From positions 516,501 through 580,500 of the forward strand of contig CP038113.1 in assembly GCA_004519485.1 (NCBI GenBank): 64,000 bases of DNA. Direction: 5' to 3'. Below the pieces are notes generated by a model, which was not told where the DNA came from, searched no databases, and saw nothing but the letters and a program-made list of their open reading frames with translations. Of this stretch, positions 2,532 through 54,400 are shown piece after piece. The position numbers and the translations under genes were made by a program. Origin of the DNA: Nannochloropsis oceanica. Lineage: Eukaryota > Sar > Eustigmatophyceae > Eustigmatales > Monodopsidaceae. How positions within the stretch are numbered: position 1 is the first letter of the stretch; the number at the start of each line of letters is the position of its first letter.

Positions 2532-3189
2532 GCTTGCTTGCCGGTGCCTTGCCGTGCACGGAGACGAGCTTTGTGACCTGTGTTGACAGTGGCGGGGTTG
2601 GGTCTGAGCAAGTGGCCTGTTTATTTTTGGCAGGCCCCAAGAACAAATCTGGCCTGGGGGGTGACGATGGCGTGGGAGGCTGGAGCAAAGTGGCCCTCTG
2701 ACGAATGGTTGCGACCGACTCAAAGAGATATGTAGAGCTCACGCTCTGGAAGCGAGGGCTCATCGCAGCAACAGAAAAGCGAGGGTCAAGTGCAACAGGA
2801 AAAAAAAAACAGGCCTCCTCTTCCCCTTAAAAAGCTGGAGCATGTGCGGTGCTGCCCCTGGCAGGCCGTGTGTTTTCCATCACATCACCGAGGCCACCAC
2901 CAGGGGTGACAAAATACGTGCCACTTAAAAAACAAGCACAAAAAAAAGAATTCTATCCGGTGGATAATTAAGGGTGGTCAAAATTATAATGATGACAAGA
3001 TAAGGCCAGAGGGCCAGGGGATGAAGACCAGCAAGGCCTTGGTTATATTGCAGTCAACACTCCACATGGGCCCGGGCCCTTGCCCTTCCCTTCTTTTCTT
3101 GTTTTATCGTGCCACACACAGATGCCGACCATCACTACTATCATTAACTTATGACCAGAATAAACCAGTTATATTTTTTTCATTGCTTT

Positions 3190-3297
3190 TGTATGTCTTG
3201 CATTAAAGGAGCTTGGTTTCCCCCCGGTAGACCAGTACTGTTTTTTTTTTAATGTTTTTGTATGCCTTGCCTCATAGGAGCTTGATTTCCCCCCGGC
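3190..3297. repeat. Two-copy tandem duplication, period 69 bp
   Basis: The segment starting TTGTATGTCTTGC and ending GGTTTCCCCCCGG is repeated 69 bp downstream as TTGTATGCCTTGC ... GATTTCCCCCCGG. Each copy is preceded by a T-rich run. The copies differ at a few positions, so the duplication is not recent. It lies in the intergenic region upstream of RUVBL2; no function is apparent. Confidence 0.75.
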
Positions 3298-3844
3298 ATT
3301 GCCCATGGCCCAACTACTTCTCCCCCTCCTTGCAGTTCATCCTCCTCGCCTTCCGGCCACTCCTTCCTCTCCGACGCCATTACGTAAACGTCCTCGTTCA
3401 CGAGCTGGTACTAGATGACCATGAATTTATCCGAACCTCCCTTCCCCCTCAATTCAGTCGCCCTCCCCTCCTTTATCCGTCATTCCCATGACTCCCCCCC
3501 TTCCCCCCTTCCCCCCTTTGAGCAGAGCCCTCCATCACACTTTTTTTCCATAAGTGTAGAGCCCTAATTGCCATCGCTCTGGTCCATCCTGGCCTGGTAC
3601 AAGACGTGTATGTGCGCGTGGTATGCTGGTACATGGTTGTCTGCTCCCCCGAGACGTCAAGCCTTTCAAAAACATGCACTTCTGGTGGTGGTGGTGGTAC
3701 TGGAGCTGCTGCTACTGGTGCGAGGAGGTGGGGTCATGAATGCTGTATCCGTTCAGATTCCCTGCCAGGTTTAATTCCCTGAAGAGAAAAAGGCCAAGGC
3801 AATACTTTCGATGTGTTCCGATCTGTAATTAGAACATACTACTT

Positions 3845-9269: not shown

Positions 9270-12111
9270 CTACCCTAACCCCAATTCCCTCCTCTGTCGA
9301 TGCCCCTCCGTTCCCATCAACAAGCCCGCCAATTTCCTACACTCTTCATCCGGGTCCTCCTTTCCCGTCGCCACTACCCATTCCATCACAGCCCTCACGC
9401 CCTCCCGCCCTCCCTCCCTCCCTCCCAGCCCGCCCAATTCTATGAACGTCAGTGCACACGCTACTGCAAGTAGCACTGCCCGTCTTAATTCAGGGAAACG
9501 ACTGAGATGGAAGGGCCATGCCACCATGAGGAGATCAGCGGCCAGGTGCGAGGTGCCGAGGGAGGAAGGGCCAGAAAGCTCAACGAATGTGGCGAGTGTG
9601 TGGAGAGTGTGGGAGAAGAACAGGGCTTGGTCGTCGTCGCGGGCCCAGAGAGGAGGGGACGAGAGGGTGGAGGACGGGAGGGAAGAAGGCGTCAACGAGG
9701 TGTTGGGGATGAGGGGAGGGAGAGGGGCGATGATCGGAGCGGTGGGGGAGAAAGAGGACGAGGTGGTGGTGGTAGAAGGGAGAGAGGACGAGGAGAGAGC
9801 GACGGTCAAGGGCCCGGAGGAGGGGGCCTGGACAGATAGGAGCATCTCGTGGAGCAGGGGGCGGAAGAAGGCTTGGGCGGCGACAGGCGCAAACTGATTG
9901 CGAAAGACAGCTGGGGGGGCTTGTCGGCGGTACCCCCATCGACGGGTTTTGCTTTCAAGAGTGGCCTTCCTGCTGCTGCTGCTACTGATGGCACTGCCGT
10001 TGCCCTCACCGTCGGAGGAGGTGATAGACGTACCTATCTCTCCCTTTCCTCTCTCAGGCACCAGCCTCCTCTTCCCCTGTACTCGTACCCCACACTCCCC
10101 CGCCTCCAATCTCTTCCCTCCCTCCCTCCCTCCCGCAGGATCGTCGCCCAAATCCCTGGCCCCCTTCCTCAACAACTCCAAGGCATCTAATCGCGTCCCC
10201 AAAGACATGTTAGTATCGTACGCCAACGTGCTCAAGACGGGGCCCACTTTATCAGGTACAGTAGCAATCAACGCCACTAACGCCTGCTCTTTCAAAGTTT
10301 GAAAATTTGAAAAGTTAAACCGATTCTCCATCGTCAGCAATTCCCTCGTAAGTGTGATACATAAATCAGGTAAATCTACGGGCCGTCGTCGAATAAGAGT
10401 AGCGGCTTCGCTCAAGGCCGCAGTGATTTTCACACAGGCATCTTCCTCGTCACGCAGACGCAAAGAGTCCAGAAGCCGACGGAGGTATCGCGGGGGAGGA
10501 GTAGCAGCCAAGTCAGCCTCATCATCCGATAAATCCAATGGCTCCAGTAAATCCCCCTCCCCCTCCTCCTCCTCCTCCTCCTCTTTCTCCTTCTCCTCTC
10601 CCCCTTCCTCCTTCTTGGCTGATACAACCCTCTCGTCCTTCCCTTCCTCCCTCCCTTCCTCGTCCTCATCCCTCCGTCCCTCCAGCTCATCAAATCTCAA
10701 GTCCTGCCCCATCACAACCGCAAAGCTTTCCCCTACTCTCATTCCCTGCTCTCGGATCGGGTCCAATGCCGAAGTTAAATGAGCACTCACACCTTCCAGA
10801 ATACCGCTCACGAGCCCCTCGCATCCCTCCAACATCTCCCTACTATTACTACTATTACTACTATTACTACAGCTGCTGCTGTTACTGCACTTGGAGTGAA
10901 GGAGGGTGAGTGCACGGGTAAGGGCGTAGGTAACGAGGTCCTGGTGCCCCGTGTCAAATTTTTGGATGAAATGCCTCTCTTTCCACAGGGAAACAATGGG
11001 AAGGAGAAGGAGGGAGGGAAGGTGGGAGGGAGGGAGGGAGGCTCCGAGGAGGTGGATAATGAGGAGGACGGCAGGCCGGTGCCGCTGCCGAAAGGAGGAG
11101 GAGGAGGAGGAGGAGGAGGAGGAGGAAGGTGAAGAAGGAAGTGAGGCAGGGGACAAGAGAAATTTGTTAATCAGGATGGTCTGGAGCGCGGGAGCGGCGT
11201 CAGAGGAAGGAAGGAGGAGAGAGGGGAGGAAACCGCGTTGAAAGGCGCCATGAGCAGCAGCAGCTGCAGCAGCTGCAGCAGCTGGAGAGATAGTGGTGGA
11301 GGTGGAGAGGGGGGGAAAGAAAAGGAAGAGGAGGCGCCGAAGAACGGCGAGGAGGATAGGTTCAAGGGCAGGAAGGGGGACGGACTCGACAAGAAGGGCG
11401 GAAGAGGGGGTGGAGGGAGGGGAGGGAAGCATGATTCGTTCTACCCATACGGCTGCGACTGCATCGGCTTGGCCCATTTTACACGCCTTGTGGACCAGGG
11501 CCCCCCAGAGAAGGGAGAAGGAGGGAGGAGGGGAAGAGAGCTCCAGGAAGAGGACGAGGATTTGTCGGGTGAGGGAAGTGTAGAGGGAGGGAAGGAGGAG
11601 GGAGGGAGGGAGAGCATCTCGGCGGAGGAGGTTGGCGAGGCGGACCGGGAGGAGGGAGAGGGATTGGAGGATGCGGTCGATGAGAGCGCGGATGGTGGCT
11701 TCTTTATGTATCATCAAAGAGAAGCTGCCGGTGTCACCATAGCTGCTGGTGGTGGTGGTGGTGGTAGTGGTCGCGACATTACCGCTGCTACTACTACTAC
11801 TGCTACTGCTGATCAGTTCGAGGACCATACTTTCCAACGCACCAGTGGCGGGTGCAAGGAAGAGTTCTAGGTGCTTGATTATGAGAGCGAGGGTGACAGG
11901 AGAGCTGTGCAGGGACTTGACGAGGTTGTGTTGGGATGGGTCATTTGTTGATGATGTTGCTGGAGTTGAGGAGGAGGAGGAGGAGGAGAAGGGGGAGGAG
12001 GAGGAGGAAGGTAAGGACGGGGAGAATGAGGACGATGATGACAAGGAGTCTGAGAGGGAGACAAAGATGCACCACTTGGCGTAAGAGGGGCTACTATCAT
12101 TACTGCTGGTG

Positions 12112-12155
<44 letters not shown>

Positions 12156-12521
12156 ACTACTACTGCTGTTGCTGCTTCTGCAGTTGAGAAGGGTTTCTAC
12201 CGATAACAAGACACTTTGAACAATCTGTTGTTGTTGTGGTGATTGTCGTTGCTCCCGCTCCTGGAACTCCTTGTCATCGGCGTCCTTGTCCAACAAACGA
12301 GGCAGCACATCACGCAGGAAGAAGACGAGGAACCCCACCACGGCGTAAGGCGAGGTGGAGGGCATGGAGAGGAGAGTGCGGGCCTGGGTCAAGGCAGCTT
12401 CGAGATCGGACTGGAAGGACGATGAGGACAGAGAAGAAGATGACCAGGATGAAGACAGGCACTCCAAGGATGCCATCACCTCGCGTAGGGCTGTGGCGGT
12501 CGTCGTTGTGGTTGATGCCAT
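9270..12521 (-). CDS. TELO2: TELO2/Tel2, PIKK-maturation (TTT complex) subunit
   Basis: A single open exon of 1083 residues from ATG to TAG. The diagnostic part is the conserved C-terminal Tel2 domain. 'RFNFSNFQTLKEQALVALI' and 'MSLGTRLDALELL' (about 730-790) match the TELO2 stretch that ends in SLRQRLDILDVL. 'RNQFAPVAAQAFFRPLL' (about 860-880) matches NRFAPVAGHFFFPLL. The N-terminal half is helical with many inserted homopolymers (Ser, Ala, Glu and Asp runs), some coded by trinucleotide repeats (12118-12155), which makes it longer than human TELO2 (837). TELO2 with TTI1 and TTI2 binds newly made PIKKs such as TOR, ATM and ATR. With HSP90 and R2TP it enables their folding and complex assembly. 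Here it lies between RUVBL2 (R2TP) and TOR. Identification rests on the C-terminal motifs; the N-terminal two thirds are too diverged to judge. Confidence 0.85.
12118..12155. repeat. (CTG)n trinucleotide repeat inside TELO2
   Basis: About 12 CTG units, with further CTA/CTG triplets on both sides, code for the longest poly-Ser run of TELO2 on the minus strand. Length is likely to vary between strains. Confidence 0.9.
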
Positions 12522-15737: not shown

Positions 15738-18244
15738 CTACGAAAACTCAGGAAACGCTTCCTTTAACGTTCTTGCCATTTCCTCTTCCCTGATCTCCGG
15801 TTCTCTCAGCCAAATCCCGATCTGCCTGTCCATCACTACCCGAAACGGAGGACCATTCGGAATCTTCGGTAAGATCTTTCTTAAGCCCTCCCCGTTGAAG
15901 GGCGGAGCCTTCATCCACACCGCTTCCAGACCTACCTCCTGAATGTACTTGGAAAGCTTCAGTGCCGCCTCTCGGTACGAATACGTGTCATCCCCCTCGT
16001 CCTCCTTCTGCTTCTTTGTTGATTCTACCCTCACGGTCGACGCCATCGGGATCCCCCTCCCCTCTCTCCCTTCCTCCCTCCCGTCCACACTGCACTTTAC
16101 CGCTGCCAAGAGCAACGCCGCGCGCCACAGCGGGCCCACCTGCAGCAGCAACCACCCAATTGTCGCCCGCTTCTCTTTCCCTTCCACCAGCCCCCCGCCC
16201 CCCTCCCCTCCTTTCGCCGCCAGCTTGAGGAAAGGAATGAATCCATCCACGACGTCATGGAGCAGAGCCACTTTATCCGCGTCTCGGGCCTTCAATTTAA
16301 GCATGCGGGCGAAGACATATCGACTCACTTCCTGCACCTTCTGGTTCGATGTCGGTGCTGCTGCGGCCGCTGCCGCTGCTGCCGCTGCTGCTGATACCGC
16401 CGTCGCTGCTGATGCCGACTTTGTAGATTTCCCACTCCACTTATTCAAATAACTACTCCCCGACTCCATCTCACCACCACCGTCACCGCTACCCCCCTTC
16501 TCCCCCTCCCCAACCACCCCATCCTTTGCCGGCGCTACCTTAATCTTCTTCATTTTCGCCTCGCTATACCTCCTGTCGGCCAAAGGCAACAACAGGGCCG
16601 CGTACAGGGCGAGCCGCACCTCCTCCGGTGACAAATCCCACTGCCGGTACCTGAGGCCCATCTCCATCTCCTTCAAGGCCTTCAAACCCAGCCCAAACCA
16701 CGCCACCCCTCCCTCCTTCCCCCCCTCCCCTTCGCCTCTCTCCTCTATCGCGGGGGATGGGAAGACAGTGGCCGCCAGACCGAGTTCACCGATGAGGGCC
16801 ATAGCCCGCGCGGGTTGAGCGCTCCGGACCATCAAGTCCACTTCCGAGCCGATCCTTTCCCGACTCACTTTGCTCTCCAACGCCTTATGCACGCGCACGT
16901 CCGAAGCCGCCGCCACGAGATCGTCGCTGATCGAGAAGGCAAGGCGGGAAGCAAATCTTACGGCACGCAACACCCGCAACGGGTCGTCGAGGAGGGTAGT
17001 GAGGGCCGGCAATGGGGTACGGATCACTCCCTCGCGCATGTCCCGCAAACCCTGCCCTGTAAAGTCTTCGATTTGCCCCGTGTTCATGTTGTAGTAAAGC
17101 GCATTGATTGTCAGGTCACGTCTAACGGGAGGAAAAGGGGAGGGAGGGAGGGAGGAAGGGAGGGATGAGAGCGTACATGTACGGACCTAGATTTATGGGC
17201 CCAAAAGCAGGAAACCAACCGCCCCCTCCCTCCCTTCCGTCCCCTCCTTTCCTTCCTCCCTGCTTGCCTCAGCGCATCCTCCTGGGGACTCCCTATATTC
17301 ATCGACGGAATCCGACTCTCATCAGTGTAGGCCTCAGTCCTCAAATTCACAAAATCAATCCAAAACGACCCCACGCGCATTGTCGCTGTCTCCAGGTGCT
17401 TGCTTTTCTCCGGATTCGCGGAAATTATCCCAACGTTATACACCTGTCTCCCTCGCTTGGCCAGCCACCTGTTCAGCGTCGCCGCGAACTCAGAGCCCAT
17501 CATATTATCAAGGGCGATGTCTATATCTACTTTCCCATCTGCGCTCCAATGTCCCAACACTTTATCACGGACCCAGCCGCCCGCTACGCGTAATGTGGTG
17601 CCGAGTTGCTCGTCTTCTACCACGGCAAGCATCGTATCAAACAGTTGGGCTTCTTCGGGAGAAAGGGGAATAGAAGGGACTTCACGTCCTCCTCCTTCTC
17701 CTCCTCCATCACCGCTGGTGGTGCCGGTGGTAGTGGAGCTGCTGCTGCTCGACGTGCTCTTGCTCCGTTTGCTGCTGCGTGATACCACTGCAGTCAGTCG
17801 TGACGACGGAGCTTGTGGGCGCCCACTACCAGCATTGCTGATGATGATGCTGCTGCCGCTGCTGCTGCTACCACTACTGCTGCCTCCCGCAAATGGCTCA
17901 AAGAGAGGGGGTCTTCGGCTCTGGGGCGTGGTGGTGGAGAGTGGGGAGAAGGAGACTGGGAGGAAGGCAAACCTAGAGACACTATAAAGAGACCGTCTTG
18001 TTGCCCTTGTTGCTGCCGTGGCCACGCTGCTGCTACGACGTAAGGCGCATACACGGGAGATTGAGGTCAGAGAGAGCATCATGACGAAGCCAAGGAGAAG
18101 GGGGGAAAGGGAGGGGATGGGGGAGCGTAGACGCCGGAGGAAGGATATCCTCATATCATGCGTGTCAGACCGCTCTGTCCGAATACGCGTGCGCAGGCGT
18201 TGTTGCTGATATTGCTGTAGGTTGAAGGGGAAATTGGAGGCCAT
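15738..18244 (-). CDS. TRNT1: CCA-adding tRNA nucleotidyltransferase
   Basis: Two exons, 17268-18244 and 15738-17121, are separated by a 146-bp intron with a GC donor (CTGAG|GCAAGC) and a normal AG acceptor (GTTAG|A). Splicing gives the family block EEDALRRDLTINALYYNMNT. Upstream are 'RVAGGWVRDKVLG', the catalytic 'DIDIAL' and 'SKHLETATMRVGSFWIDFVN'. Downstream are 'DFTGQGLRDM', 'LDDPLRVLRAVRFASRL' and the neck domain. The enzyme adds CCA to tRNA 3' ends. Start choice: ATG at 18242-18244 gives 786 residues; ATG at 18152-18154 (MRISFLRRLRS) gives 756 and starts just before a hydrophobic stretch 'LLLGFVMMLSLTSISRVCA'. Two starts could serve dual targeting (inference). The C-terminal half carries inserted Ala and acidic runs. 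Class II family identity is secure. Confidence 0.93.
17122..17267 (-). other. GC-AG intron in the CCA gene
   Basis: The donor reads AG|GCAAGC, the strong-consensus form seen in GC-AG introns. No GT lies near enough to keep the conserved EEDALRRDL block. The acceptor is CCCGTTAG|ACG. Every other intron placed in this window uses GT. Confidence 0.85.
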
Positions 18245-18692
18245 GTGGTTAGAGCTCTTAGAGGTGGCAAGGCGATGTGGGTCACCACAATTGCACGGTA
18301 TGAGATAGCCCACGCATAAGCTCGCCATTCGGAGAATGAGCAGTGCGACGCAGCGGTCCGTGAGGAAAGAGCTGCAAGTGTGTGAGTGCGTCACACAATT
18401 CTTAGGACACAAAGGCAGCTTAAGTTGAGGCAGCAGTTTTTCGCTTCTCCAGCTCTCCTCCTGGCTTGAGAAACACTCATCACTCTTGCTATATAGCCTG
18501 TGCGCAATAAACGACCAAATAGTCCTGTTTTACGACAGTCACGCCCCACCACATCAACCGCAGGACGCGGACATCGTCATGATCATTGTGAGTCCGGCGC
18601 CAATCACCATGCCTTCGCAATAGTCTTTTCTCAACCCATCATCACCGAATCGGCCTGGTCACCTCGTGTACGTCCCACTCCTCCTGCACGCC
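18245..18692. promoter_or_regulatory. Divergent upstream region of the CCA and MFS-Sec14 genes
   Basis: 448 bp between divergent starts; no recognisable motif beyond short AT-rich stretches near 18490-18530. Confidence 0.35.
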
Positions 18693-21600
18693 ATGCCGCC
18701 GGCACCATTGCCTATGCATCACCATCAGCCCCGCAGCAGCAACAACGGCAATAGGCCCTCCTCGTCCTCCTCCTCGAGCACCAGCGGCAGCGCCAACCAG
18801 ACCGCAGCTGTTGCCGACCTCGGGAATGCCCTCCTTGCCTCGTTCCTTGTGCCTTTTGCTCCTTCCCTCCTCGACAGGCGCCTGAACGTGGGCTTCTTTC
18901 ATGACTCAGACACGCCGTATTGGTGGGCCCTGACCTTACTTGCTTTCTGGGGCGGACAACATATTGCATGCTGGGTGAGGCGGAAACCGGGGTCGTGGCA
19001 TTGGTACATGTCACGTCTGCCTTCACGACGAGCGACTCAACTACAGTTTGTTTGTTTGACCGCAGTGCTGCTTGCTGTTTTGAGCACGGGCTGGGTGACA
19101 CGGGTGGAGCTCCTATTGATTTCAAGGTGGTTCACAGGCTTCGCCAGTGTGTATCTGTGGGGTCATGCCATGGAGAGGAAGAAGGAAAGGTTTAATGGAG
19201 GAGGGATGCACCCCGCTGCTGGGGGAGGAGGACGATGGAGCAATAATCGAATTTTGGTTCCCTCATCATCATCCACTCCTTCCACTTTGGTGAGCCTGTC
19301 GATCAATCCCATGCAGGCGTTAGGGTGGCTGCTTGGCGGGTTGGTGGGAGGCTTGACCTTCTCGTCAAGAATGTTTGTGGTAGTTGGGGGGCTGCCGGCA
19401 ATGGTGCCTTCGATCGTGACGGCTGTGCTTGTCTTTTTATTGGCCTGCTTGGTCTTGCGAAGAATGCAAAAGGAGGTGGAACGCGTGGGAGCACGGAAGT
19501 GTCGTAAGCCGGAGCCACTGCAGCAGCAGGAGCAGTCTGAAGAGCAGCAGCAGCTGCTGCAGCTTGGAGGAGGGGGTTCAGGGCGTGATGCCCTGGCTAG
19601 AGCACGCACACCCCTCACGTCCCCCGACACCGCTGCCCGCCGCAACAATAACCACAGCGACAAGCACCCCATCACCTCGTCCTTCCCTTTCCCCTCCTCC
19701 CTTCCCCCATCCCTCCCTCCTCCCCCTCCCCCCCCCACCTTCCTCCAAGCCGCCGGTGGAGACTACGCCAAAGCCCACGCACACTACCACGCGCATCTCC
19801 GCTGGCGCGCAGAGGAAAGAGTCAAAGATATTTTGAATCGTCCCCACCCGAACTTCGACGCGATTAAGCAGTATTACCCTCATTTCGTCCATGGACGGGG
19901 CAAACAAGGAGAAATTGTAGTCTACGAATTTCCGGGGAAGATGGACCTGAGGGAGTTGAAGAAGCAGGGGGTGGGGGCGGAGGAGATCGGAATGCATTAT
20001 GTTTATTTCAATGAGTTTCTGAGCCGGATGTTGTCAGGGAAGGGAAGTTGTGAGGAGCTTGAGGGCAGGAAGAATGGAGGGGGCGGTGAGGATGAGGTGC
20101 GGGTGATGACCGTGCTGGATATCGGGGGATTGGGCCTGGGGAGTTTAAGTAAAGATGTGCTGGAGGTTATAGGGACCACGTCGCGTTTGCTCAACCAGCA
20201 CTACCCTTCACGGGTCGTGAGGATTGTGGTGGTGAACGTTCCTTTCTTCGTCGGGGGGGCATGGAAAGTCCTGTCTTCCGTCTTGCCGCAGCAGGTGCAG
20301 GACAAGATCGAGTTATCCTCAAATCCGGAAATGGATTTGTTGAAGTACATTGATAGGCAATACATCCCGAAAGAATATGGAGGAGTGAGCCGCGAAGGGC
20401 TGGGCGAGTCGGAGGAGGAGGAGTGGTTGAGGACGGTGGTCCGGGAGCGGGGGAGGACGGGGGGGAGGGAAGGGGGAGGAACGGAGGGGGAGGGGGTGGT
20501 GGCCGCGCCTCTGTCGTCGTCATCATCTATCGCCACATTCTTGCAAAGTGCCCGGACGCCCTTGCCTTCCTCCATCGTTACGAAAACCACCACCAGCAGT
20601 AGCAGAACCAGCAACAGCAGCAGAGCCACGACCAGCAGCACCAACCGCAGCAGCAGCAATCGCTGGCTCCCCTCGTGGATGATAACTGCGCCTTCCTATC
20701 TCCCCCTCCGGAATAGACCGTCGCCCATACACGCCCATCTCGGTCTGGACAACAAGTTCGTCTTCGACCAGGCGAGGGGGGTGTGGGTGCTACGGGAAGA
20801 GGAGGAAGGGGAGGAGGGGGGCGATGGAGAGGACACGGCGCTCCTCCCTGGTGAGAAGGAAGGAAGAGGGAGGGAGGAGGAGGAAGAAGAAATGCCACCA
20901 TTGCCAGAGACGGAAGAGGACGGATTGATTCTTGCCATTCAAGCGGCGCATTATGCAGAGCAGCTCTCACGCGAGGGGAAGAAGAGCCCTCCCTCCTTCC
21001 CTTTCATCTCCTCTTCTTCACCCAGCGCTGTGCTTGTTTCACATGGTTTGCAACATCATTCTGGCCGGCAGCAGCAGACATCCTGGAAAGACAATGCTAC
21101 TAATACCAACACTGCTGCTGCTGATGCTGCTGTTGCTGCTGCCCTTGGAGGTGCGGGCCTCAAGCCTTCCCTTGGCGCTCACACTAACGTGGACCTAGAA
21201 TGGGGCTCAAGCCAACCCTCCTCCTCCTCTTGTTCCTCTTCTCATCCTCCTTCCAGTCCCCTCCTTCTCCTCCAGATCACCTTCCTCTTCTTCCTCCTCT
21301 CCTTCCTTCAAAATTCCCTTCTATCCATGCTTCCCATCTGGCTCGCGATCCCCCACTCCATCGGTGGCCTTTCCCTCCCTCCCTCCCTCCTCGGCCTCCT
21401 CCTCTCCTTCGGGACCACTGCTACCTTTGTCATACACACCTATGCTCTTCCAGCTCCTCTCCTTCGCCTGCCTTCCTCCAACCCTTTGCAAGCTTTCCGT
21501 ATGGCGGTCTTTCTCTTCGTGTCGTGCACAGTTCTGCTGAGCGGGCTACACCCACATGTCGCCTCGCTACCTTCTTCCTCCTCCTCCTCCTCCTCCTCCT

Positions 21601-22091
21601 CCTCGTCTTCTTCTTCCTTTACTTCGATTATCATCGGCTTCGAACACTTTGTTGCCTTTTTCTTTTATCTCCTCCTCCTCCTTCTCCTCGTCTCCTCCCT
21701 TTTCTTCGCCCGCGCCGCCAGCATCACCCTCATGCACCTCGTCTCCCTCCCCCCCTCCCTCTCTCCCTTCTTATCCTTCCTCCTGTCATGTACAGAGATG
21801 GTTGGGCCGGTAGTTGGTGCATGGGTGCTATCATGGTCAGTGGCTGCAGCGGGAGTAGGGGTGACATACCCGATGGATGCAAGGCTGATCTGGCATGTGT
21901 CCGCGTTGCTTTTGGTGGGTTTGTACGTCATGACATTGCAGTTGCAAGTGGTTCTGAAAGGAGATTGGGGGGCGATGAGGTTGGAAGAAGGTGGAGCGGG
22001 AGGAGGAGGAGGAGGGAGTGGATTTATTTTCTTGGGGAAAGGGGGTTTTAAAAAGGGGAGGAAGAAGAAAGGACGGCGATCGGGAGTGTAG
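18693..22091 (+). CDS. MFS transporter with a Sec14/CRAL-TRIO domain inserted in the central loop
   Basis: A single open exon of 1132 residues from the first ATG. Residues about 30-240 hold a six-TM half: 'YWWALTLLAFWGGQHIACWV', 'FVCLTAVLLAVLSTGW', 'LLISRWFTGFASVYLWGHA', 'ALGWLLGGLVGGLTF' and 'IVTAVLVFLLACLVL'. This is the layout of TM2-TM6 in MFS carriers. Residues about 375-565 are a complete CRAL-TRIO lipid-binding domain: 'IVVYEFPGKMDLRELKKQ', 'TVLDIGGLGL', 'HYPSRVVRIVVVNVPFF', and the closing 'IPKEYGG'. After a Ser/Glu-rich linker, residues about 850-1086 form the second TM half. Its 'LPIWLAIPHSIGGLSLPPSL' and 'GLLLSFGTTATFVIHTYALP' resemble the TM7-TM8 region of ZIFL/TPO-type MFS proteins. 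The protein may couple lipid sensing to transport (inference). The MFS assignment is moderate; the Sec14 assignment is strong. Confidence 0.8.
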   Translation: MPPAPLPMHHHQPRSSNNGNRPSSSSSSSTSGSANQTAAVADLGNALLASFLVPFAPSLLDRRLNVGFFHDSDTPYWWALTLLAFWGGQHIACWVRRKPGSWHWYMSRLPSRRATQLQFVCLTAVLLAVLSTGWVTRVELLLISRWFTGFASVYLWGHAMERKKERFNGGGMHPAAGGGGRWSNNRILVPSSSSTPSTLVSLSINPMQALGWLLGGLVGGLTFSSRMFVVVGGLPAMVPSIVTAVLVFLLACLVLRRMQKEVERVGARKCRKPEPLQQQEQSEEQQQLLQLGGGGSGRDALARARTPLTSPDTAARRNNNHSDKHPITSSFPFPSSLPPSLPPPPPPPTFLQAAGGDYAKAHAHYHAHLRWRAEERVKDILNRPHPNFDAIKQYYPHFVHGRGKQGEIVVYEFPGKMDLRELKKQGVGAEEIGMHYVYFNEFLSRMLSGKGSCEELEGRKNGGGGEDEVRVMTVLDIGGLGLGSLSKDVLEVIGTTSRLLNQHYPSRVVRIVVVNVPFFVGGAWKVLSSVLPQQVQDKIELSSNPEMDLLKYIDRQYIPKEYGGVSREGLGESEEEEWLRTVVRERGRTGGREGGGTEGEGVVAAPLSSSSSIATFLQSARTPLPSSIVTKTTTSSSRTSNSSRATTSSTNRSSSNRWLPSWMITAPSYLPLRNRPSPIHAHLGLDNKFVFDQARGVWVLREEEEGEEGGDGEDTALLPGEKEGRGREEEEEEMPPLPETEEDGLILAIQAAHYAEQLSREGKKSPPSFPFISSSSPSAVLVSHGLQHHSGRQQQTSWKDNATNTNTAAADAAVAAALGGAGLKPSLGAHTNVDLEWGSSQPSSSSCSSSHPPSSPLLLLQITFLFFLLSFLQNSLLSMLPIWLAIPHSIGGLSLPPSLLGLLLSFGTTATFVIHTYALPAPLLRLPSSNPLQAFRMAVFLFVSCTVLLSGLHPHVASLPSSSSSSSSSSSSSSSFTSIIIGFEHFVAFFFYLLLLLLLVSSLFFARAASITLMHLVSLPPSLSPFLSFLLSCTEMVGPVVGAWVLSWSVAAAGVGVTYPMDARLIWHVSALLLVGLYVMTLQLQVVLKGDWGAMRLEEGGAGGGGGGSGFIFLGKGGFKKGRKKKGRRSGV

Positions 22092-23138
22092 GTGGGAAGG
22101 GAGGAGACAGTCGAAGGTGTTCCAACATTATCCGCTGTGCATTTTCATCTATTCCAATCTGTCACGAGAGTAGCAGAGATAAAGCAGGAAATGGTGGATC
22201 AACGAGCGGAGGTCGTGATGTGTTAGGAGGGATTGGAATTGATGTTGCCCCAGCCTTTTAAGGAATCCTCTGGTGCCCGTTATGGCGGAGGGGTTAAAAC
22301 CTAGACAAGACGAACAAGGTAGATGTGATTGATTAGGATGGCGATGAGCCCACATTGAGAAATAGACGACAAAAAACAAGGGGGAGGGAGGAGGTTGGTG
22401 GGGTCAGAAACGGGGAAAAATAAAGTCAAGCGAGTGAGACACAAGCAGGCATGAATAAAGAGCTTATGTCAGATGAAAACACAAAGTACAAGGCACAAAA
22501 AGTAATTTATGATGTCGGTTTGTGGGTATAAGGAAGGCGAGCGGGTTGGGATGTAGGGACATGCGGCAGGCCATGCCCCTGCCATCTTCCTTCTTCGCGC
22601 CAAGCAATACGCAGCTTCTATGTGGTCATGTCTCCGTGACATTTGGCGTGCGGGACTTTTTGTGGTTGCGCACGATGGTTGTACTTGGAATAGTAGTCTG
22701 TGTTACCTTGAGTCTAATTCCAAGAGCATGGCCTCTGGGTAGTTTCTGGGCGCTCCAGCTCGTTCCCACACCCCACCTTCGTCTTTCTGCGGCGAGCCAG
22801 CCCCTCCTCTGCTATCTCCCTCCCAAACCTCTTTTTCCACGTCGTTCGTCGCATGTGCTTTGTGATGCCCATGGGTCTTGGGGGTGTCTTGTTTTCGTTT
22901 CTTGCTGTTTGTCTCCGTCATTCAAATGCACCCACACACTGTACACACTCCGTTGCTCCCGACCCATCCTCCCTCTCCCTCGCTCACCGAAACACACGAA
23001 CACGCCACCACGCAGAAGCAAAAGGGTTGCCAAGCTGGCTCCCTTTCAATCCGTTCAAAAAACAGCAAGTCTGTACACTCAGGTATCTCCGTTCCCAACC
23101 ACCACCACAGCAACACGACGGGCGATCAAAACTCGACC
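22092..23138. promoter_or_regulatory. 1-kb upstream region of ISWI
   Basis: It holds the 3' end of the MFS-Sec14 gene and the 5' region of ISWI. A 206-codon plus-strand frame (22522-23142) overlaps it but has no recognisable motif and is Pro/Arg/Thr-rich; I treat it as chance. Confidence 0.35.
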
Positions 23139-35340: not shown

Positions 35341-36040
35341 TTACCCCTGATGAGAGAGCAACCTAAGATTGTAAGGCACCGGTAAAATCATTTGCATCTT
35401 GTGTGTCTTGACGTGCTCTCCAAACTGATTTTCGCGGCGCCAGCCCCGATGCTCGTACCTGTAACGGTGAGCGGCGGCCTGGGGGTGCTCTTGGCAGTTC
35501 CCGCAAAGGTCGTAGTCGTAGCACTGTTGGAACGAGGGGCGGGGGAGGGAAGGAAGAGGAAATCGAGAGAGAGTGAGAGGCTGATTTTTACTTTGCCAAA
35601 GACAAGCGAAAGTCTTGGGTAACCTTCCACACCACCCTCCCTTCTTGCTTCTACTTACAACACGGCACTTGAACCTGGGCCCCGTGAAATCCGTCACTCC
35701 ACACCTATCACAGCAAAAGCCGAGATGCCGTCCCTGGATCACGTATTCGAGCGTCTGCCTCGCATTCATGTGTTTGTGCTGATAGTACACGTTCCGGACG
35801 CGGAAAGATTGATACCCGAAGCGCTCGAACAGATTCACCACATGCTCAAGCTTAAGCGAGGTGTGCTTGGTCAACGCCCGACGAGGACGGGGGACCGGGT
35901 CGGAGGGGAGGAGGTCGAGGGCGGTGGTGCTCGAGGAAAAAATAGAGGACAGGAAGGAGTGGGATTCGGCTTGAACCGCTGCCTTTTCCTCGTCCTCGGT
36001 CGTGACACCCGCAGCCGTCACAGGCCCCCCGACGCAACAA

Positions 36041-36073
<33 letters not shown>

Positions 36074-38649
36074 ATCTCCTTATTTTTTAAGTCACTCGGA
36101 CTGCTACTCTTCTCCGGGTCCTGTCCCTCACCTCCCTCCATCTCTTCCTCCCCCTCCTCATCCACGTTTATATTGAACAGATTCTTAGTCTGCTCGGCCG
36201 CCTCAGCATTGTCTCGGCCGTAGTACATCACACATGCCTCGTGGAACAGCTCAGCCAGGTACCCTTTATACACCTCCTCCATCGCTCCTTCCATCCCTCT
36301 CAAAAGGAAAATCAAAATTTGCCCGTTCTCCACTCCTGCATCCCTCAACGTCATCTGCCCTCCCGAGGCCTCTCCTCCCTCCTGCCTTCCTCCCTCGCTC
36401 TCTCCTCCCACTTCGCTGGGCTGTGTAGGGCAGGTTATCAAGCGGTGCTGCACGTGGGCATTCCGTTGCCAGGTGGCAGGTGTGGTCTCGACGTGTGCTT
36501 GCAAGTTTCTAGGGGTCTCTGCGACAAGTCCACCGACAACGGCGAAGAGGTGATAAAGTGGGGTATGATGCTTCACCACCGCATGGCTTAGGAATCCCAG
36601 GCGGCCTGTGACAGGGTTCAACCACTTAATGAACACCAATACATGCATGTCTGAGCTGGGGGTAGGACAAGGAGCAAGGGCCGCAACGGCCGCAGCACCT
36701 CCAGCAGCGTTAGCGGCGGTTTGTGCGGCATGGGATTGGTGGCAGAGGTCGCGGGAATCTGGCATGAGAGAGACGGAGTGAAGAGCGTGTCGTGCACGAT
36801 AACGATGCAGGCCAGGTACATCAGAGAAGGGGGGAGCGAAAGAAGCAGCAGTTGCTGCTTCCGCTTCCTTGGCCTTGTCCACCTCGTCGTCGGCGTTATC
36901 ATCTTGAAAATAGTCGCTTTCGTCCTCTTCTTCCTCCACTTCCTCCTCCCTGTCTTGACTCGTGGCCATCACCGCTGACAACTGAGAAGCCTGTGGCTCA
37001 ATTTCATCATCTTCTTCCTCCTCCTCCTCCTCTTCTTCGTCTTCCTCATCATCATCATCATCCTGGTGCCCGGACATCAGCCCCGCCGGCGGCGCCACAG
37101 CTGCAGCAGCAGCTGCCGCAGCAACTGCTTTACGAGACGCAGCAGTGGCAGGAGTAGAGGCAAATCCCCCATCCCCCGCACACTCGGCCCAAACCCTCGC
37201 CACTCCCAATCCATCCATATGCAGCTGCAACAGTGAAAAGAGAGTCGTGGAGCTGTTGTCATCGTCACCAGCAGCAGCCCCCGCACCAACAGCTGCAACT
37301 GCAGCAGCGACAGCATTAGCGTTCAAAGGAGGGTTGAAATTCGCGGGAGGGGGAGGGGCTAAGGCCAGCTGCTGCTGCTCTTGTGGCGGGGCGTTCGCGA
37401 CAGCAGCAGCAGCAGCGTCAGGAGGGTGGTTTCCGGCGTTTTGATTTTGGGCCATGGGTGGAGGGGCATGAGGGAGGGGCTGACCATTGCTGCTGCTGTC
37501 GGTCACCAGTATCTCGCGGGGGCACAAAATGGTATCGGGCCACGGCTGGGTGAACACCCACAAGCGGAGATGCTCTGCTGAGGTCAGTCCTAGGTCACTG
37601 ACAAGCATTTCCTTGAAAGCGGAGAGTGTGGTGCAGTGGAAGAGCTCGTACGTCAGGGTCTTGTCTCCTTGCGCATCGGCTTCGGCCCCTGTGTCCACAA
37701 CCCCAAACCCCTCGTGGGCAGTCAAGTTCGAGGTGCGCACGACCTTTACAGTGAGATAGAGGAGACGAAGGCGGACTTTCAGCTTCAAGGTGTCGTCCAC
37801 CACGAAGCCGGAAGCAGGGTCCTTCAACTTCGTAAGGGGAAGGAGAGAATGCACCCCCCAATTTTTTCTATTTTTGTGGAAGCGGTCGTTGAGCATGGAG
37901 GAGTGCCAAGTAACGTTCCGCCCTTTGCGTTGCTGGTTGCAAGCCGTTAACGAAAAGGCACAGCAGCACTCCCAATCGCCTGGGGGATTACCCACTCCTC
38001 CACCCTGTCCAGGTACGCCCATCGCCGCCATTGCCGCTGCTGCCGCTGCTGCCACCATGTTATTGTTATTCCCGTTCCCACCGTCCGGCTGCACATCCCC
38101 CAAGGCCGCTGCTGCTGCTGCTGCCACTGCTTCCGGAAAGCCAGGGGCTTGAGCCAGCTCCTCTGTACCGGGCGCTACTGGGGCGCCTGTGGCTATTGCT
38201 GCTGCCAGGGCGGCGGTCGCAGCGGTGGATGGAGGCACGGGGGAGGCGAGGGAACAGGCCAGGTAGACCGAGACCCCAGGTTCAAGGAAATAGACGTTAG
38301 GATTCCCGACAGGGTCGACGATGACTTTGAAGTTGTAATTTTCGACGCGGAAGGAGGGGGAGTAACGTCGTTCGGGGTTGGAGAGGAAATCGGTGACGAC
38401 CCATTCGAACACTGCAGAGCGGTTTCTCCGGTTCTTGTCTTTGAACAAGGCTTTCCAATCCCCTCTGTACGGCATTATGTCGTACGTCTCCTTTAAATGA
38501 GGAAACAGACGCCAAGAAGCATTCTCCCAATAAGAACGTTGATCCGTTAGGTGGCAAAAGTCCTTGCAGACACCGGCGCATGTCAATAGAGCCTCCCCAT
38601 CCAGGAAGGAGAGGATGCGAGACACAAGATCCAGGGGCAGATGGTCCAT
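35341..38649 (-). CDS. F-box protein with MATH, USP7-like UBL and ZZ zinc-finger domains
   Basis: Two exons (35659-38649 and 35341-35523) give 1057 residues. Residues 1-45 are an F-box ('DHLPLDLVSRILSFLDGEAL'). Residues about 90-295 form a MATH fold ('SPSFRVENYNFKVIVDP', 'KNRKNWGVHSLLPLTKLKDP') like the TRAF domain of USP7. Two ubiquitin-like segments match the USP7 ICP0-binding region: 'YELFHCTTLSAFKEMLVSDL' (about 333) and 'HVLVFIKWLNPVTGRLGFLS' (about 670) with 'MTLRDAGVENGQILIFLLRG' (about 766). A ZZ finger closes the protein: CDRC, FKC, then C and CGNC of 'VCYDYDLCGNC', and distal His residues. No USP catalytic Cys or His box is present. An SCF-type ligase adaptor is implied by the F-box. 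The 135-bp intron lies inside the ZZ finger, is a multiple of three and contains no stop. Confidence 0.85.
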
Positions 38650-39852
38650 GCTTACAGTTGCGGCTGCCACTACTGCACGGGCACCTCCGTGGAGGTGGCA
38701 ATGGTGATGGTTGTACGGAGACGAAGGAAAGAAGGGGAAGGGGGACAGACAGGCAGGCAGACGCCGCAAGACGACGTTTCGAGCTCGTCGAGTTGCTGTT
38801 GACAGCACCTCCCGCGTTCTCTGGTCTTGGCTGTGGTCTGTGAATGTAAGGATGTGGTGTAGGGCATGGGAGAGTCCAAGGTGAGAAATTATCAGAACTT
38901 GATGGGTGTTTCCCCACGGGCGTTGTATGGGCGCCTCGTCCTAAACCCCTGGTATTCCTGATATTTGAGTCAATTGACAGGCGAGATCTGCCCCCGCCGC
39001 AGGCTCAGATACGCTGTGTCCAATGCCTTCGTTGTATAGCAGACCCGTGTAAATATGTACTGCAGTGGCTTCGCATCCAAATCACAGACAGGCATATCGA
39101 CATGCATTCAATTAGGAGGCTGTCCCGCTCGTTAAAACACGACTCAAAATCCATCCCATGGAGAGCCCATGCACAGGCAAACAGTCTGACAGGCTCTCCC
39201 TAAACATAGGACCGCCATGTCATTGCCCAAGGTTTGCCATAAGTAGAAATCGAGTCGTTGGGGTGATCTCCTTGCTTGCTGCGAGCACTGCAGGTCATCC
39301 ATCTCTTGTACAGGACTTCAGCAAGAGTCATGAGCGACCTCCATCTCCAAACCTCGCCAAAGCAAATTTGGCGATGCAAGAACGCTCGAGGACAACAAAG
39401 GCAGGAAACAGGAAAGGAGCGACGAGAGGAAGGACATGACGCGAAATGGTGAAGCCCTTTCAAATAATCATTTGCTTTTTTGTCGTGGTGCGTCCCAGGA
39501 GTTTTCTCCGGACTCGCTCACGATAACGCCCATACTCATTCCTCCTCCTCCTTTTTATTTCATGCGTTTTGAAAAATATACATGCACGATCAGGACAAAC
39601 AATGACTTTCGCACTCAGTAATTGCATTCTTTTTTTCCTCCGTGTGTCTGGCGGTGCGGCGCTTTTTTGGTTTCCACGCCGAAAGAGTTGGTGGTGGTTG
39701 GTGGTGGAGAACCTCCCCGCCCTTGCCTCCTTCCGGCTTTCACTTGCAAGGAGCTAAAGTAACAAGAACCACGCCCTGTTTTGCAATTTATATTAAATCT
39801 TCCTTATTTCATTGTGCATTCTTTTTCCATCAAGATTCCGACAGTTTCCTTG
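38650..39852. other. 1.2-kb region between two minus-strand genes
   Basis: It lies upstream of the F-box gene and downstream of the oxygenase gene. Mixed composition, AT-richer after 39430. No gene, RNA or repeat was recognised. Confidence 0.4.
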
Positions 39853-48483: not shown

Positions 48484-51400
48484 ATGGCGACCTTGGAAAA
48501 GGAGAATGCCTCGGTGCACCACCTGATCCAGGGCCTTCGGAGCCCGCATGGCCCCACGCGCACTCGGTACGTTACGTATGTGGTTACGATGCTCAGTCTG
48601 CTCTGCCCTGTCTCTCCCCTTCCCTCGTCGAACCACCAGCGAGAGTCCAACCAGTGTCATATGCACGCGCAGGTGCACCTGCTAAGCTCTACCTTCAGTA
48701 TTTGTCTCTCTGTACTTTTTCCTGCTGCTATCGAGACTGTCATCTCACCACTTACACCTCTCCTACCTCCCCCCCACCCCTCCACATGAACAACAGCGCC
48801 GCCAAGGATCTCCGCGCCCTTGTCGAGTCCGCTTCCCGTGGCCTGTCCATTGAAACGTTTGCCCGCTTTGAAACTGAGTTGTTTCAACGGGTATTTGCCT
48901 TGGTTCATGCGCCCGAATCACAACTGTGGGAGAAGCTTGGGGGGTTGGAAGCAATGGATGAGTTGATCGACGTACCCTCCGCGGAGGCAGAGACGAAAGT
49001 CATCAAGTTTGCCAATAAGCTTTCTTTCTCGCTACGGTAAGTGTTTTGGCAACAGTCACGAAAAAGGGGAGGTGTTAAGAATCGAGCATGTCAACAGTGA
49101 TTAATTTACGTGGCCGGCCCTCCCTCCCTCCCTCCCCTATTTCACAGCTCCTCCGTCGAGTATGAATTCCTGATGCAAGCTTCCAAAACACTGGGCCACC
49201 TCGCGCGTTCCTCCGTGGTTCCCAATGCAGACTACGTGGAGTTTGAAGTCGACCGCGGTGTGGAATGGCTCAGCTCTGACCAGTCTTCGCGTCGGCTTGC
49301 GGCGTGCTTTGTGCTGAAGGAATTGGCAGATAACGCCCCGACATTATTTTATTCCAAGACGGGGGAGTTTCTGGAAAGGGTGTGGGTGGTGCTAAGGGAT
49401 CAGAAACCAATCATACGCTTGAGTGCGGCGCGGGCACTGAGTGGGTGTTTGCGGATTTTGGCCTCAAGGTGAGTGATGCTTCTTCTCTTCACGGGTTTCC
49501 CTCTTTCTTTCTTCCTTTCTATCTTTGTTTCTCTCTTTCTCTTATTTTTTTTCGTTCATGTTGCTGCTGTCATTGCATCTACTTGGCTTGGAGCACGACG
49601 CCTGCCCCCCCCTTCCGCTTTCTTACATCATCAACACACTCACTTGTGAAACAGGAGTGCCATGAACCACGTAAATTGGTACTGCAAAGTCTACGAACAA
49701 GTGCAGGAGGGACTCGTCACCAGACAGGGCAAGGGTGGGCAAGCAGCAGCAATGCACGGGTCCCTGCTGGTGATCGGCGAGATGCTTTCATACACGGGCG
49801 ACTTTATGGTGCCGCGGTTTCAGGTCAGAAGGGAGAGAGGAAGGGAGGGAGGAAAGGAGGGAGGATTGAAAATGTGACCGACGTGCTCCGCTTTAAGCTT
49901 GGCTCCGCTTCCATAACAGCTCATATGCCCTTTCTTCCCTCCCTCCCTCCCTCCCTCCCTCCCTCTCCTCCTCCCCACAGGAAGTCTGCCAAGCTGTCAT
50001 GGTAGTCCGCGAACACAAAGACAAGTGCATCCGGGTATCCGTCCTTGAAATCCTGCCTCGCCTCGCCCACTTCTGCAGTGACATGTTTGCGCGATCCTAC
50101 CTGGAAGACGCACTCAGTCATTTGTTGATTGCCGTCAAAAACCCCGAGTTAAGACCTCAAGCGTTCTTGGCGTTGGGAAAGCTGGCCCTCGCAGTGGGTG
50201 AATACCTGCGGCCTTATTTGTCCCAGATTTTGGGGCTGGTGAGGGAGTACATGAGTAACAAACACAAGAGGTAAGCAGGAGAGAAGGGGGGGAAGAAGGA
50301 GAGGAGCGAGCGCTAACATATTTCGTCAATACCGTCCTCACGCTTGCCATCCCTCCCTCTCTAACCCCCTCCCTGTCATCTTAGGGTATACTGCCGCGAG
50401 GCCCTCGACTGTGTGGCCTCTCTTGTCCTGGCTGTCTCGGACGACATGTCGGTCCACACGATCGAGCTGCTCGACCCCATCTTCGCCGGTGGGGTGACCA
50501 CCACGCTCATTAAGACTCTGACGGTGATATGTGAACGGTTACCGGAGCATCAACGTCTCGTGCAGCAACGGTTGCTCCAAGAGCTTTCCACCCTCCTCGA
50601 CGGCCAGCCCTACGTCTCTCCGGGGACAACCCTGCCCGTACGCCAGATAGGCCCCTCCTTCTCCTTCCCTCCTTCGTCCTCGTCCTCCTCGGAAGTGGTG
50701 GGTGGAGTGGATGGGGCGTCCGCGGTAGCTGGTGTGGTTGCAGCTGCTGCTTCTACTGCTACCGCTCAGGCGTTGGGCGGGGCGGCGGTGCCAGGTGTGC
50801 GCAGTCGTCTTAGTGGTGGAGGAGGAGGGAGGGGGCGAGGAGGAGGGGGAGGTGCCGCCACAAGCAGCAGCACGGAGATGATGAACGGCTCGAGCAGCAG
50901 TGGCAGCAGTGGCAGTGGTAATATGCTGCCAAAAATGGAGACGAAGCGCGTTAGCACCACCTCCCGCTTTTTTTCCAAGCTCCAACTTCTCGCTTCTGCT
51001 GCCACGGGGGGATCCAGCGGAGGAAGTGGAGGAGGGGATGGAGGGAGTAAGATAGCAGGGGGATACCACGGCGCTGGCGGTATGGGGACGATGGGGAGTC
51101 AGCTGTTGACGGCGGAGGCGGCGGAAGTGGTGATTTTGGCGTTGAGAACCCTTGGGGCTTTTCATATGGACGATGACGTGGACCTGTTGCCCTTCGTGCG
51201 GGATTGCGTGGGACAGTATTTAGACAACCCCCACCCGCTGGTAAGGAGGGAGGCGGCTTTGACCTGTTGCCGTCTGTTATTGGTGGACCGTGGAGGAGGA
51301 GGAGGAGGGGAATGGAGGGGGAGAGGGACGGAGAGAGGGGGGGGGAGCAGTGGTGGGGGTAGTCGTAAGGTTTTGAGGGTGCGTGGACCTAGCGCAGATG

Positions 51401-54400
51401 TGATCGAAGAGGTGTTGAAGAGATTACTACAGGTTACAGTTGCGGATCCCGACCCGTCCCTCCGCCTCACTCTCCTCCGAGCCCTAGATGATGGATTCGA
51501 TCCTTTTTTGTGTCAAGCTCACCACGTAAGGATCCTCTTCCTCCTACTCCACGACGAATTCCTTTTAGTTCGCGTTGACGCCATTCAAGTTTTAGGGAGA
51601 CTAGCAGCGCTCAACCCTGCCTACGTCCTTCCACCCATGCGTCTCACCTTGCTTCGACTCTTAACCGAGATCAAATTTGGAGGGAGGGAGGTAGGATGGG
51701 GTGGTAGTGGAAAGGCAGGAGGGAAAGGAGGGGATGCGGATGAAAACGGTGGACAAGGAGGGGGAGGAGGAGGAGGAGGAGGAGGAGAGAGTCGAGCGGA
51801 AGAGGCGACGTTGCTTCTCGGTCATTTTTTGCGTGCCGAGCCTCTACAGCGCTTGGTGCACCCGTTTATCCGCACGGTTGTGCTTACCCTTCCCATCCAG
51901 CAAGGCCCCGCTCGCCTTGCGGCCGTTGGGCTCGAGGCGCTCGGAGAGCTTGCGGAGGTGGTGAAGACGGACATGATACCTTACCTTGACCAGCTCGTGC
52001 CTTTGGCCATCGAACATTTGCATGACCAGAGCTCGGCGCATAAACGAGAGATGGCGTTGAGGGCTTTGGGTCAAATGGCCTCTTCGACGGGGTACGTCAT
52101 CAAACCTTACATAATGCATCCTGCACTCCTGCCGAAGATCTTGTCGGTGCTGAGGGAGGGAGGGACGAATGCCATGCCCTGGTCCTTGAGGAGGGAGGCA
52201 TTGAGGACGTTTGGTGTGCTAGGCGCGTTGGACCCGTATCGTTTTCAGATAATCCAGGAGAGAGCGAGGAGAATGACTGCAGCAGCTGCGATGACGGCTC
52301 GACCTTCCTCGATGACCAAGGGGGGGAGAGTGTACCTACCTGCACAGCAGCAGCAGCAGCAGCAGGAGCAATTGTCCTTGGCCTCGTCAGCGGCTGCGTT
52401 AGGGGTGATGGGAGGGGGGGGGGTCGCATGTCTCAGCGGGAGGTGGACACTCGCATTCGGAAATGTTGCAGCAATTTTACAGGGATGGAGCGCCTAATAT
52501 GGGGGTGGGGGGAGAGGGAGCGGCTCCCAGCACGATGAGCAGTGAATTGGTGGCGATTGGAGTGGGATTGAGTGACAGCAATCGGGAGGAGGAGGATGAC
52601 GACGACGAGGAGGAGGGGGGGGCGCATTCGTACATGTATGAGATTTCAGCCATGCGGGCTCAGCCTATCGATGGGACGACCCCGTCGGGTCCGAGGCTCA
52701 CGGCTGCAAGTGAAGATTATCATCCGACCGTTGTGATCACGTCACTGATGAATATCCTTCGGGACTCTTCCTTGTCCGCCCACCACTCCATGGTGACGCA
52801 AGCAGTCGTCTTCATCTTCAAAAGCCTGGGGGTGCGCTGCGCCCCTTTCCTCAACAAAATCGTGCCCAACCTCCTCTATACCGTCCGTGTTTGCGAGCAT
52901 GGACTTCGTGAATCCATCATTCAAGAACTGGCTTTATTGGCTCCGACCGTCAAGCACCACCTCCGTCCCTTCCTCAGCCCCATCTTTGACGTCATAACTG
53001 ATTACTGGTCCGAGTACCTCGAGCAATGCGTGAGCGTTACCGAGAACGTGGCCTTACACCTCCGAGAAGATTTCAAACTTTACCTTCCCCGCGTCCTTCC
53101 ACTCCTCCTCTCTTCACTTTCGGCATTCACGGCATCGTCTTCCTTCTCGCCTCCGTTATCTAAATCGACTGCCGTCACAACTTCTGGGCTGACTTCATCT
53201 CCTTCTTCCCTCTCGTCCTCCCTCCCTCCCTCCTCCTCTGCCACTCTCACCTCCAAGCCTTCCGTTCCGCCAACCACCACCAAGAATGGTAGAGGGGTGG
53301 GAGGAGAAGGTGGAGGAGGAGGAGGAGGAGGGGAGGGAGGGGACATGGGTGGAACGTCTTCTTCCTCTTCCTATCTTGCTCGCAAGCACCAGAACCTGGA
53401 GCTCGTGCTGCGCTGTCTAACTGTCCTTCGTCCTGTCTTATTGCAGGAACAACTCCTCCACCTCGTTCTTCCTGCCCTTGTTACCCTTGAAGGGTCTTTC
53501 GAGGGAGCGAGGGAGCGAGGGAAGGAGGAGGAGGTGGCAGTGTTCTGGCAGGTGCGGACGATGAGAACTTTGGCCCATTTGGTGAGGCCGGCGGCTGCAC
53601 AGGAGGTGGCTAGGAGTATGGCTTGTCCGATAATGCACATGTTTTACAGGGTGCTCAGTCAAGGGGGGGGCGGATGGGGGAACGGACGGTCAGCGGGAGG
53701 GGTGACGGTGCTGCCTCCAGAAGGGGGTGAAGTAGGAGTCGTAGGGGGGCTCCCGGGCGAGTTGAGGGAGGCGGTGATGGATGGGTTGGTGATCATGGCA
53801 ACGCAGCTTGGGCCGCAGTATGAAGCATTCAGTGGATTGATTGGAAAAGCCGTGAATGCGAGGGGTTTGTACACACATCCTACCTACATGTTGATGCAGG
53901 CTCGGGTGGGTGGAGGAGGGGGGGGGGGGGAGGGGCGAGCTGGGGAGGGGGAGGGGGAGGAGACGAGAGGGGGGCGGCGAGGGTGACGGTGGAGATGGAC
54001 CAGCAGGCATTACAGGAGGAGGTGATTGCAGAATATTTGGGCCTTTCAAACACGGGGAGGGAGGAGGTGGGGCCGGAAGGCGGAGGGGAGGGTGGGGGGG
54101 AGGTAGGGGCTGCGGGGGGAATGCAGAGATTGCATGTGAACCAACCTAACTTGCAAAGGGCGTGGGATGTGTCTCAGAGGGCAACGGGGGATGACTGGGT
54201 GGAGTGGATCAGGAGGTTTAGTCTGGAATTGTTGAGAGAGAGTCCGTCGCCTGCTCTAAGATCGTGTTCGGCGTTGGCCCAGGTATACCCGCCCTTGGCA
54301 AGGGAGTTGTTCCATGCGGCGTTTGTGTCATGTTGGTTCGAATTATTGGAGCCGTATCAGGATCATTTGGTCCGGTCTTTGGAGGTGGCGTTTCGGAGTG

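Follow-up and report, generated by a model that had tools for sequence, protein, structure and literature searches.

Yeast Sec14 and Sfh5 and human SEC14L2 are soluble lipid transfer proteins of the Sec14/CRAL-TRIO type. The same domain is recognized, by Pfam and by matches to PDB sequences, in the predicted product of a gene of the alga Nannochloropsis oceanica, here called protein A. This gene lies in a stretch of 64,000 nucleotides (contig CP038113.1, positions 516,501 to 580,500; G000:C16:516501-580500 in our numbering), referred to below as the window and numbered from its first base; searches of the alga's own genome cover 29.26 Mb on 32 contigs. Unlike Sec14, Sfh5 and SEC14L2, protein A carries its CRAL-TRIO domain between two membrane halves; it also does not keep the residues corresponding to R65, E207 and T236 of Sec14. 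The membrane part recalls the MFS drug/proton antiporters, which are represented in the profile used here by MdtG, NepI and MdfA of Escherichia coli, among others. Indeed, the first half and the seventh transmembrane segment (TM7) match this profile, and a paralogue, B, displays six plus six segments. However, in contrast to these antiporters, A and B give no match to hidden Markov models (HMMs) of the family, possess a degenerate motif A and contain a whole domain in the loop joining TM6 to TM7.

Two further systems are comparable. The vacuolar phosphate carriers of the SPX-MFS type (PHT5) associate a ligand-sensing domain with an MFS carrier (PMC11811851), but their SPX domain sits at the N-terminus, unlike the CRAL-TRIO domain of A and B, and binds inositol pyrophosphates. 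MOSPD2 resembles A and B in that its CRAL-TRIO domain is anchored to the membrane (PMC9692390), but it has a single C-terminal TM helix and an MSP domain and includes no carrier. No MFS-CRAL-TRIO protein was found described among the open-access PMC papers listed; as far as these papers show, A and B are known domains in a new arrangement.

Reading frame of protein A and its paralogue

Protein A is encoded by one open reading frame that runs from an ATG at 18693 to a stop codon at 22089-22091 (18693..22091, + strand) and specifies 1132 amino acids (aa) without requiring any intron. From stop to stop, the frame comprises 1155 open codons, a length that is beyond chance: when the region 18001-22600 was simulated 300 times with an order-2 Markov model, the longest frame had a median of 221 codons and a maximum of 435. 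A codon score, for which seven stretches of other window genes with Pfam matches served as training set, places this frame ahead of the five others in 24 of 28 overlapping 60-codon windows; the four exceptions start at aa 81, 321, 361 and 601. The single uninterrupted frame announced in a preliminary description of this DNA is therefore borne out, with a codon bias that lies mostly in frame. That description also named a split gene, or an intron removing the Sec14 region, as findings that would overturn it; neither was seen in the sequence.

Two alternative readings of the region were considered and rejected. A hidden intron could be drawn by eye at the Pro-rich tract before the CRAL-TRIO domain, with GTAAGC (19504) as donor and AG (19748-19749) as acceptor, for an in-frame cut of 246 bases. 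It would delete the residues TFLQ, which align with Sec14, B and C11, and even if real it would leave the fusion of the parts intact. A frame overlapping the 3' part of the gene (21200-22051) has a codon score below that of the protein A frame in all of the last seven windows.

Paralogue B, located on contig C4:1225064-1228660 (L051:1565-5161), repeats the whole design of protein A and is the best support for it. According to a sequence-based model, its gene is predicted to comprise four exons (1565-2889, 2979-3056, 3222-3432 and 3557-5161 in L051 numbering) separated by three GT-AG introns, none of the three being present in A. The spliced product, of 1073 aa, is collinear with protein A from end to end (blastp 2e-47, filtering and composition correction both switched off) and displays in the same order a TM half, a CRAL-TRIO domain, an acidic linker carrying a shared motif and a second TM half. 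Exon 1 spans the first TM half and the beginning of the CRAL-TRIO domain, while exon 4 spans the end of this domain, the linker and the second TM half. Both junctions are thus included in single exons of the model, and a chance merger is therefore unlikely. In randomization tests, none of 400 shuffles equalled the similarity of A and B in the CRAL-TRIO domain or in the acidic linker.

Globally, the placement of a CRAL-TRIO domain between two TM blocks stands, with hydrophobic segments on either side of it and the same order in B. The existence of a second, very diverged copy suggests that the arrangement is a genuine novelty that has persisted and does not come from a misread sequence, and it is very probable that the architecture (TM half, CRAL-TRIO, TM half) is that of a real gene.

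The CRAL-TRIO domain, its linkers and the membrane halves

The Pfam CRAL_TRIO model matches protein A at aa 393-564 (19869-20384) with 76.3 bits for a cut-off of 22.6 (E 3e-21). The PDB sequences that match protein A are Sec14-type proteins, with a best E of 7e-11, or 1e-11 when the domain alone is used. The better PDB alignments begin at aa 336-350 and so take in, of CRAL_TRIO_N, the last helix only, which lies in the same frame; CRAL_TRIO_N itself has no separate Pfam match in protein A. From Pfam, PDB and the alignment with Sec14, the end of this helix and the CRAL-TRIO/Sec14 domain can be delimited at 19734..20411 (+ strand, aa 348-573). On these sequence matches the presence of a CRAL-TRIO domain is certain.

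The binding of phosphoinositides, which had been put forward among the ligands of such domains, fares differently in the two paralogues. Besides E207 and K239, Sec14 has R65, R208 and T236, which we take to be further phosphoinositide positions. At R65, E207, R208, T236 and K239, in this order, protein A displays A, S, R, V and K, whereas B displays C, E, R, T and K, so that two of the five positions are kept in A (R208 and K239) and four in B. Both E207 and K239 are essential for phosphatidylinositol transfer, according to PMC4331669. Protein A is therefore a poor phosphoinositide candidate, for which such binding appears unlikely, while B is a better one, for which it is possible. As Sfh5 binds haem (PMC7462610), hydrophobic ligands other than phosphoinositides are conceivable.

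The domain is flanked by two linkers. The first cytosolic linker (19479..19733, + strand; aa 263-347, about 85 aa) is of low complexity and rich in Gln and Pro, and includes aa 321, where another of the six frames scores higher. The second (20412..21239, + strand; aa 574-849, about 276 aa), delimited from its sequence and from its similarity to B, is acidic and rich in Ser. It contains a motif common to both paralogues, LGLDNKFVFDQARGVWVLREEEE in protein A (20739..20807, + strand) and LGRENRFVYDEGRRQWILIEEEP in B, with the consensus LGxxNxFVxDxxRxxWxLxEEE. Besides B, a search of the own genome with this motif finds protein A (E 0.026) and four other places, one of which is a low-complexity coiled coil and another precedes a DnaJ-like domain. 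At L085 (G000:C6:1286700-1287300), a sequence resembling the motif, RVWDENQRKWVRYDLREE, lies directly before a DnaJ-like region identified by eye.

The first membrane half (18804..19478, + strand; aa 38-262) is MFS-like, with a profile-profile match that covers TM3-TM6. The second (21240..21962, + strand; aa 850-1090) is MFS-like in register with the first but not proven alone. The six plus six TM segments initially described were recovered by Kyte-Doolittle hydropathy in B, where six clean segments precede the CRAL-TRIO domain and six follow it, but not cleanly in A, which has four segments over the threshold in its first half and eight in its second, plus a false one inside the CRAL-TRIO domain.

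The relationship with MFS carriers was examined with a profile of nine MFS genes of the own genome (one frame, L065, being partial) and with profiles of 26 genes that also include 17 from E. coli K-12. The first halves of A and B together match TM3-TM6 of the nine-gene profile (57%, E 1.1e-4, 0 of 100 shuffles as good) and of the 26-gene profile of N-terminal halves (89%, E 2e-6, 0 of 60 shuffles), the latter scoring 43.9, compared with 18.9 when the query is reversed and a maximum of 18.5 among the 60 shuffles. Each first half taken alone also matches (A: 76%, E 2.4e-5; B: 16%, E 1.7e-3; 0 of 40 shuffles in both cases). When the CRAL-TRIO domain is cut out and the halves are joined, the alignment of A plus B runs from TM3 across the cut into TM7 (84%, E 7.9e-6, 0 of 60 shuffles), as does that of A alone (60%, E 8.5e-5, 0 of 40). 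The joined halves of B give an alignment of 263 columns that covers most of the MFS profile (query positions 100-398, profile positions 101-391; 27%, E 6.8e-4, 0 of 40). With the profile of C-terminal halves, the joined halves of A were equalled by 0 of 40 shuffles. In positive controls, 11 of 12 halves of six MFS proteins were recovered at 87-99.6%, the C-terminal half of the partial L065 reaching 13%. With single sequences, the N-half scores of the 17 E. coli MFS proteins (13.0-24.6) overlap those of eight non-MFS membrane proteins (12.0-18.6), and the MFS signal therefore arises only with a profile.

Other results weigh against an MFS origin of the membrane halves. No Pfam or NCBIfam match to MFS was obtained with A, B or their halves at E up to 10, the MFS_1 matches of the own genome do not include the protein A frame (9 of 70 candidates scored), and PDB profile searches with the two halves matched no MFS protein. 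Real MFS halves score far above those of A and B, and the non-MFS controls are eight single sequences. The second half alone does not separate cleanly from shuffles: 15 of 100 are as good with the nine-gene profile and, depending on the profile, 1, 0 and 0 of 60 in the comparison with 26 genes. Taken separately, A is equalled by 1 and 4 of 40 shuffles and B by 13 and 0 of 40, and the joined halves of B by 4 of 40 with the C-half profile. The similarity of A and B is weak in the first TM half (equalled by 12 of 400 shuffles when blocks are shuffled and by 5 of 400 when the shuffle is full) and in the second (8 and 1 of 400), with alignment z values of 2.4-4.4 versus 42-61 for the CRAL-TRIO domain. 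Motif A, which is normally conserved between TM2 and TM3 of MFS proteins, is degenerate as judged by eye (CWVRRKP in A, CHYRSQP in B). Finally, AlphaFold models made without alignment are of low confidence (pLDDT 39.5 for protein A and 52.3 for the C-half), and a fold search with the C-half model gave no meaningful match (best probability 0.09).

Motif C (G-x3-G-x2/3-GG) was dropped as a marker of MFS: it occurs in A and B, but also in 10 of the 26 MFS proteins and in one of the eight controls, and it is not confined to TM5. The LPIWLA...GGLS stretch of protein A presumably resembles TM7-8 of ZIFL/TPO carriers, and its GGL is absent from B.

The MFS identity first proposed therefore fails the HMM check but gains support from profile-profile comparison for the first half and TM7. 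These alignments support an MFS derivation of both, and the register with the first half makes an MFS nature of the second half probable. MFS descent of the whole membrane part is likely, even if the family assignment is not firm.

Proposed mechanism and alternatives

In the mechanism that we favour, A and B would descend from a 12-TM MFS carrier bearing a Sec14/CRAL-TRIO module in the loop between TM6 and TM7, which is cytosolic in MFS carriers. The module would be tethered by the linker of about 85 residues before it and by the long acidic linker of about 276 residues after it. On these arms, it could reach the membrane face or a nearby membrane, and it might hold at the cytosolic face a hydrophobic ligand, which need not be a phosphoinositide. 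The flexible arms may allow it to load this ligand into the carrier or to take it from the carrier, and ligand handling and transport would be coupled within one chain. The chances that the proteins are diverged MFS carriers whose tethered CRAL-TRIO domain handles a hydrophobic ligand at the cytosolic side of the membrane seem to us evenly balanced. Given the architecture, we tentatively place ligand loading or unloading ahead of gating or anchoring, as one possibility.

By analogy with SPX in PHT5, the CRAL-TRIO domain could instead act as a sensor, switching the MFS carrier off or on upon ligand binding. The cytosolic position of the TM6-TM7 loop would suit such a role, and there is a precedent, since PMC11811851 reports that PHT5 transport is switched on by removal of the N-terminal part that includes SPX. 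However, linkers of such length disfavour tight docking and protein A keeps few phosphoinositide positions; we regard a lipid-gated carrier as rather unlikely.

The diverged MFS half-bundles could also form a non-transporting anchor or transceptor that holds a transfer or sensing CRAL-TRIO domain at one membrane, as in MOSPD2 (MSPD2), which is, according to PMC9692390, the one human membrane-anchored CRAL-TRIO protein. This explanation stays alive because of the degenerate motif A of both paralogues. Furthermore, the TM halves are far more diverged than the CRAL-TRIO domain, and several other CRAL-TRIO genes of the own genome have, as judged by eye, short hydrophobic stretches only, just before the domain. 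The retention of twelve hydrophobic segments in B nevertheless exceeds the needs of an anchor, and we regard this role, like gating, as rather unlikely.

The TM blocks might not be MFS at all but other hydrophobic segments lying beside a CRAL-TRIO domain, as the negative HMM and PDB profile searches and the overlapping scores of single sequences would allow; this is unlikely in view of the in-register profile-profile match of the N-half, well above its reversed and shuffled controls. An annotation artefact, in which two genes or hidden introns would be read through, is very improbable: Pro-rich 'PPSLPP' stretches do look like the pyrimidine tracts of own-genome introns and, at aa 321 and 361, another of the six frames has the better codon score, but the TFLQAAGGD found beside this tract, before the CRAL-TRIO domain, aligns with Sec14, B and C11, and the architecture recurs in B with both junctions inside exons.

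Related genes and age of the arrangement

The search of the own genome with CRAL_TRIO found 31 places, corresponding to about 23 genes after grouping. For twelve of them, A and B among these, at least 7 kb of sequence was read, and the other 11 were scanned by hydropathy within 1.5 kb. None of the 21 other genes shows six-segment frames on both sides of the domain. A diverged member could have escaped this search for a third gene of the same design because protein A itself is not clean by hydropathy. No second TM half was seen in the 10 other paralogues read in long stretches; for C22 (L053), the reading extends to a long run of N that follows the gene. At C2:110k, a downstream frame with four segments follows a stop and has its own ATG, and it was taken as a separate gene. 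No relatives were found in the viral collection scanned with protein A or in the bacterial genomes scanned with an MFS protein of the own genome. The loci L052, L053, L055, L056 and L057 represent an expansion of CRAL-TRIO genes, several of which have hydrophobic stretches preceding the domain, and L055, L056 and L057 seem to have in common an unnamed N-terminal region, PH-like by eye in L055 and L056.

In a CRAL-TRIO tree of seven rows, from which the long-branch C17 was left out, the partner of A is C22 (96/95), and a tree grouping A with B is rejected (approximately unbiased test, p 0.0025); adding C17 (eight rows) yields a group of A, C22 and C17 (98/96). The rows of these trees were joined by eye, long branches are present, few of the other forks are settled, and the group was chosen for testing with the first tree already in view. 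Because A and B do not appear to be sisters in this small tree, their arrangement looks old. If the tree is right, the MFS-like frame would predate several paralogues and have been lost in others, or domains would have been swapped. A and B might belong to an ancient family of lipid-handling proteins that unite both functions in one chain: the Sec14 domain, on its tether, would collect hydrophobic molecules from the cytosolic leaflet or from an apposed membrane and deliver them to an MFS carrier, or receive them from it, some other CRAL-TRIO genes being reduced descendants that lost the carrier; we consider this scenario speculative and fairly unlikely.

The window also contains other genes. 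A gene of the poly(A)/CCA polymerase type (15738-18412, - strand) occupies two frames, the second of which has a Pfam match just below the cut-off; it reads away from the protein A gene, its frame ending about 280 bases upstream of the ATG of A. Further away lie a gene for a TELO2-type protein (Telomere_reg-2; 9273-12521, - strand), a frame of 1155 aa with F-box-like and MATH domains (35344-38808, - strand), a pairing that is to our knowledge unusual, and a TOR-type kinase gene with mTOR, FAT, FRB, kinase and FATC domains distributed over three frames (50413-59286, + strand).

Little is known about how soluble binding proteins and membrane carriers pass lipids and other hydrophobic molecules to one another. 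A single chain that includes both the binding domain and the carrier would, if the proposed reading is true, make this hand-over directly testable. As the host is apparently an oil-accumulating alga, its lipid traffic is of practical interest, and A and B would add a lipid-binding counterpart to the SPX-MFS design.

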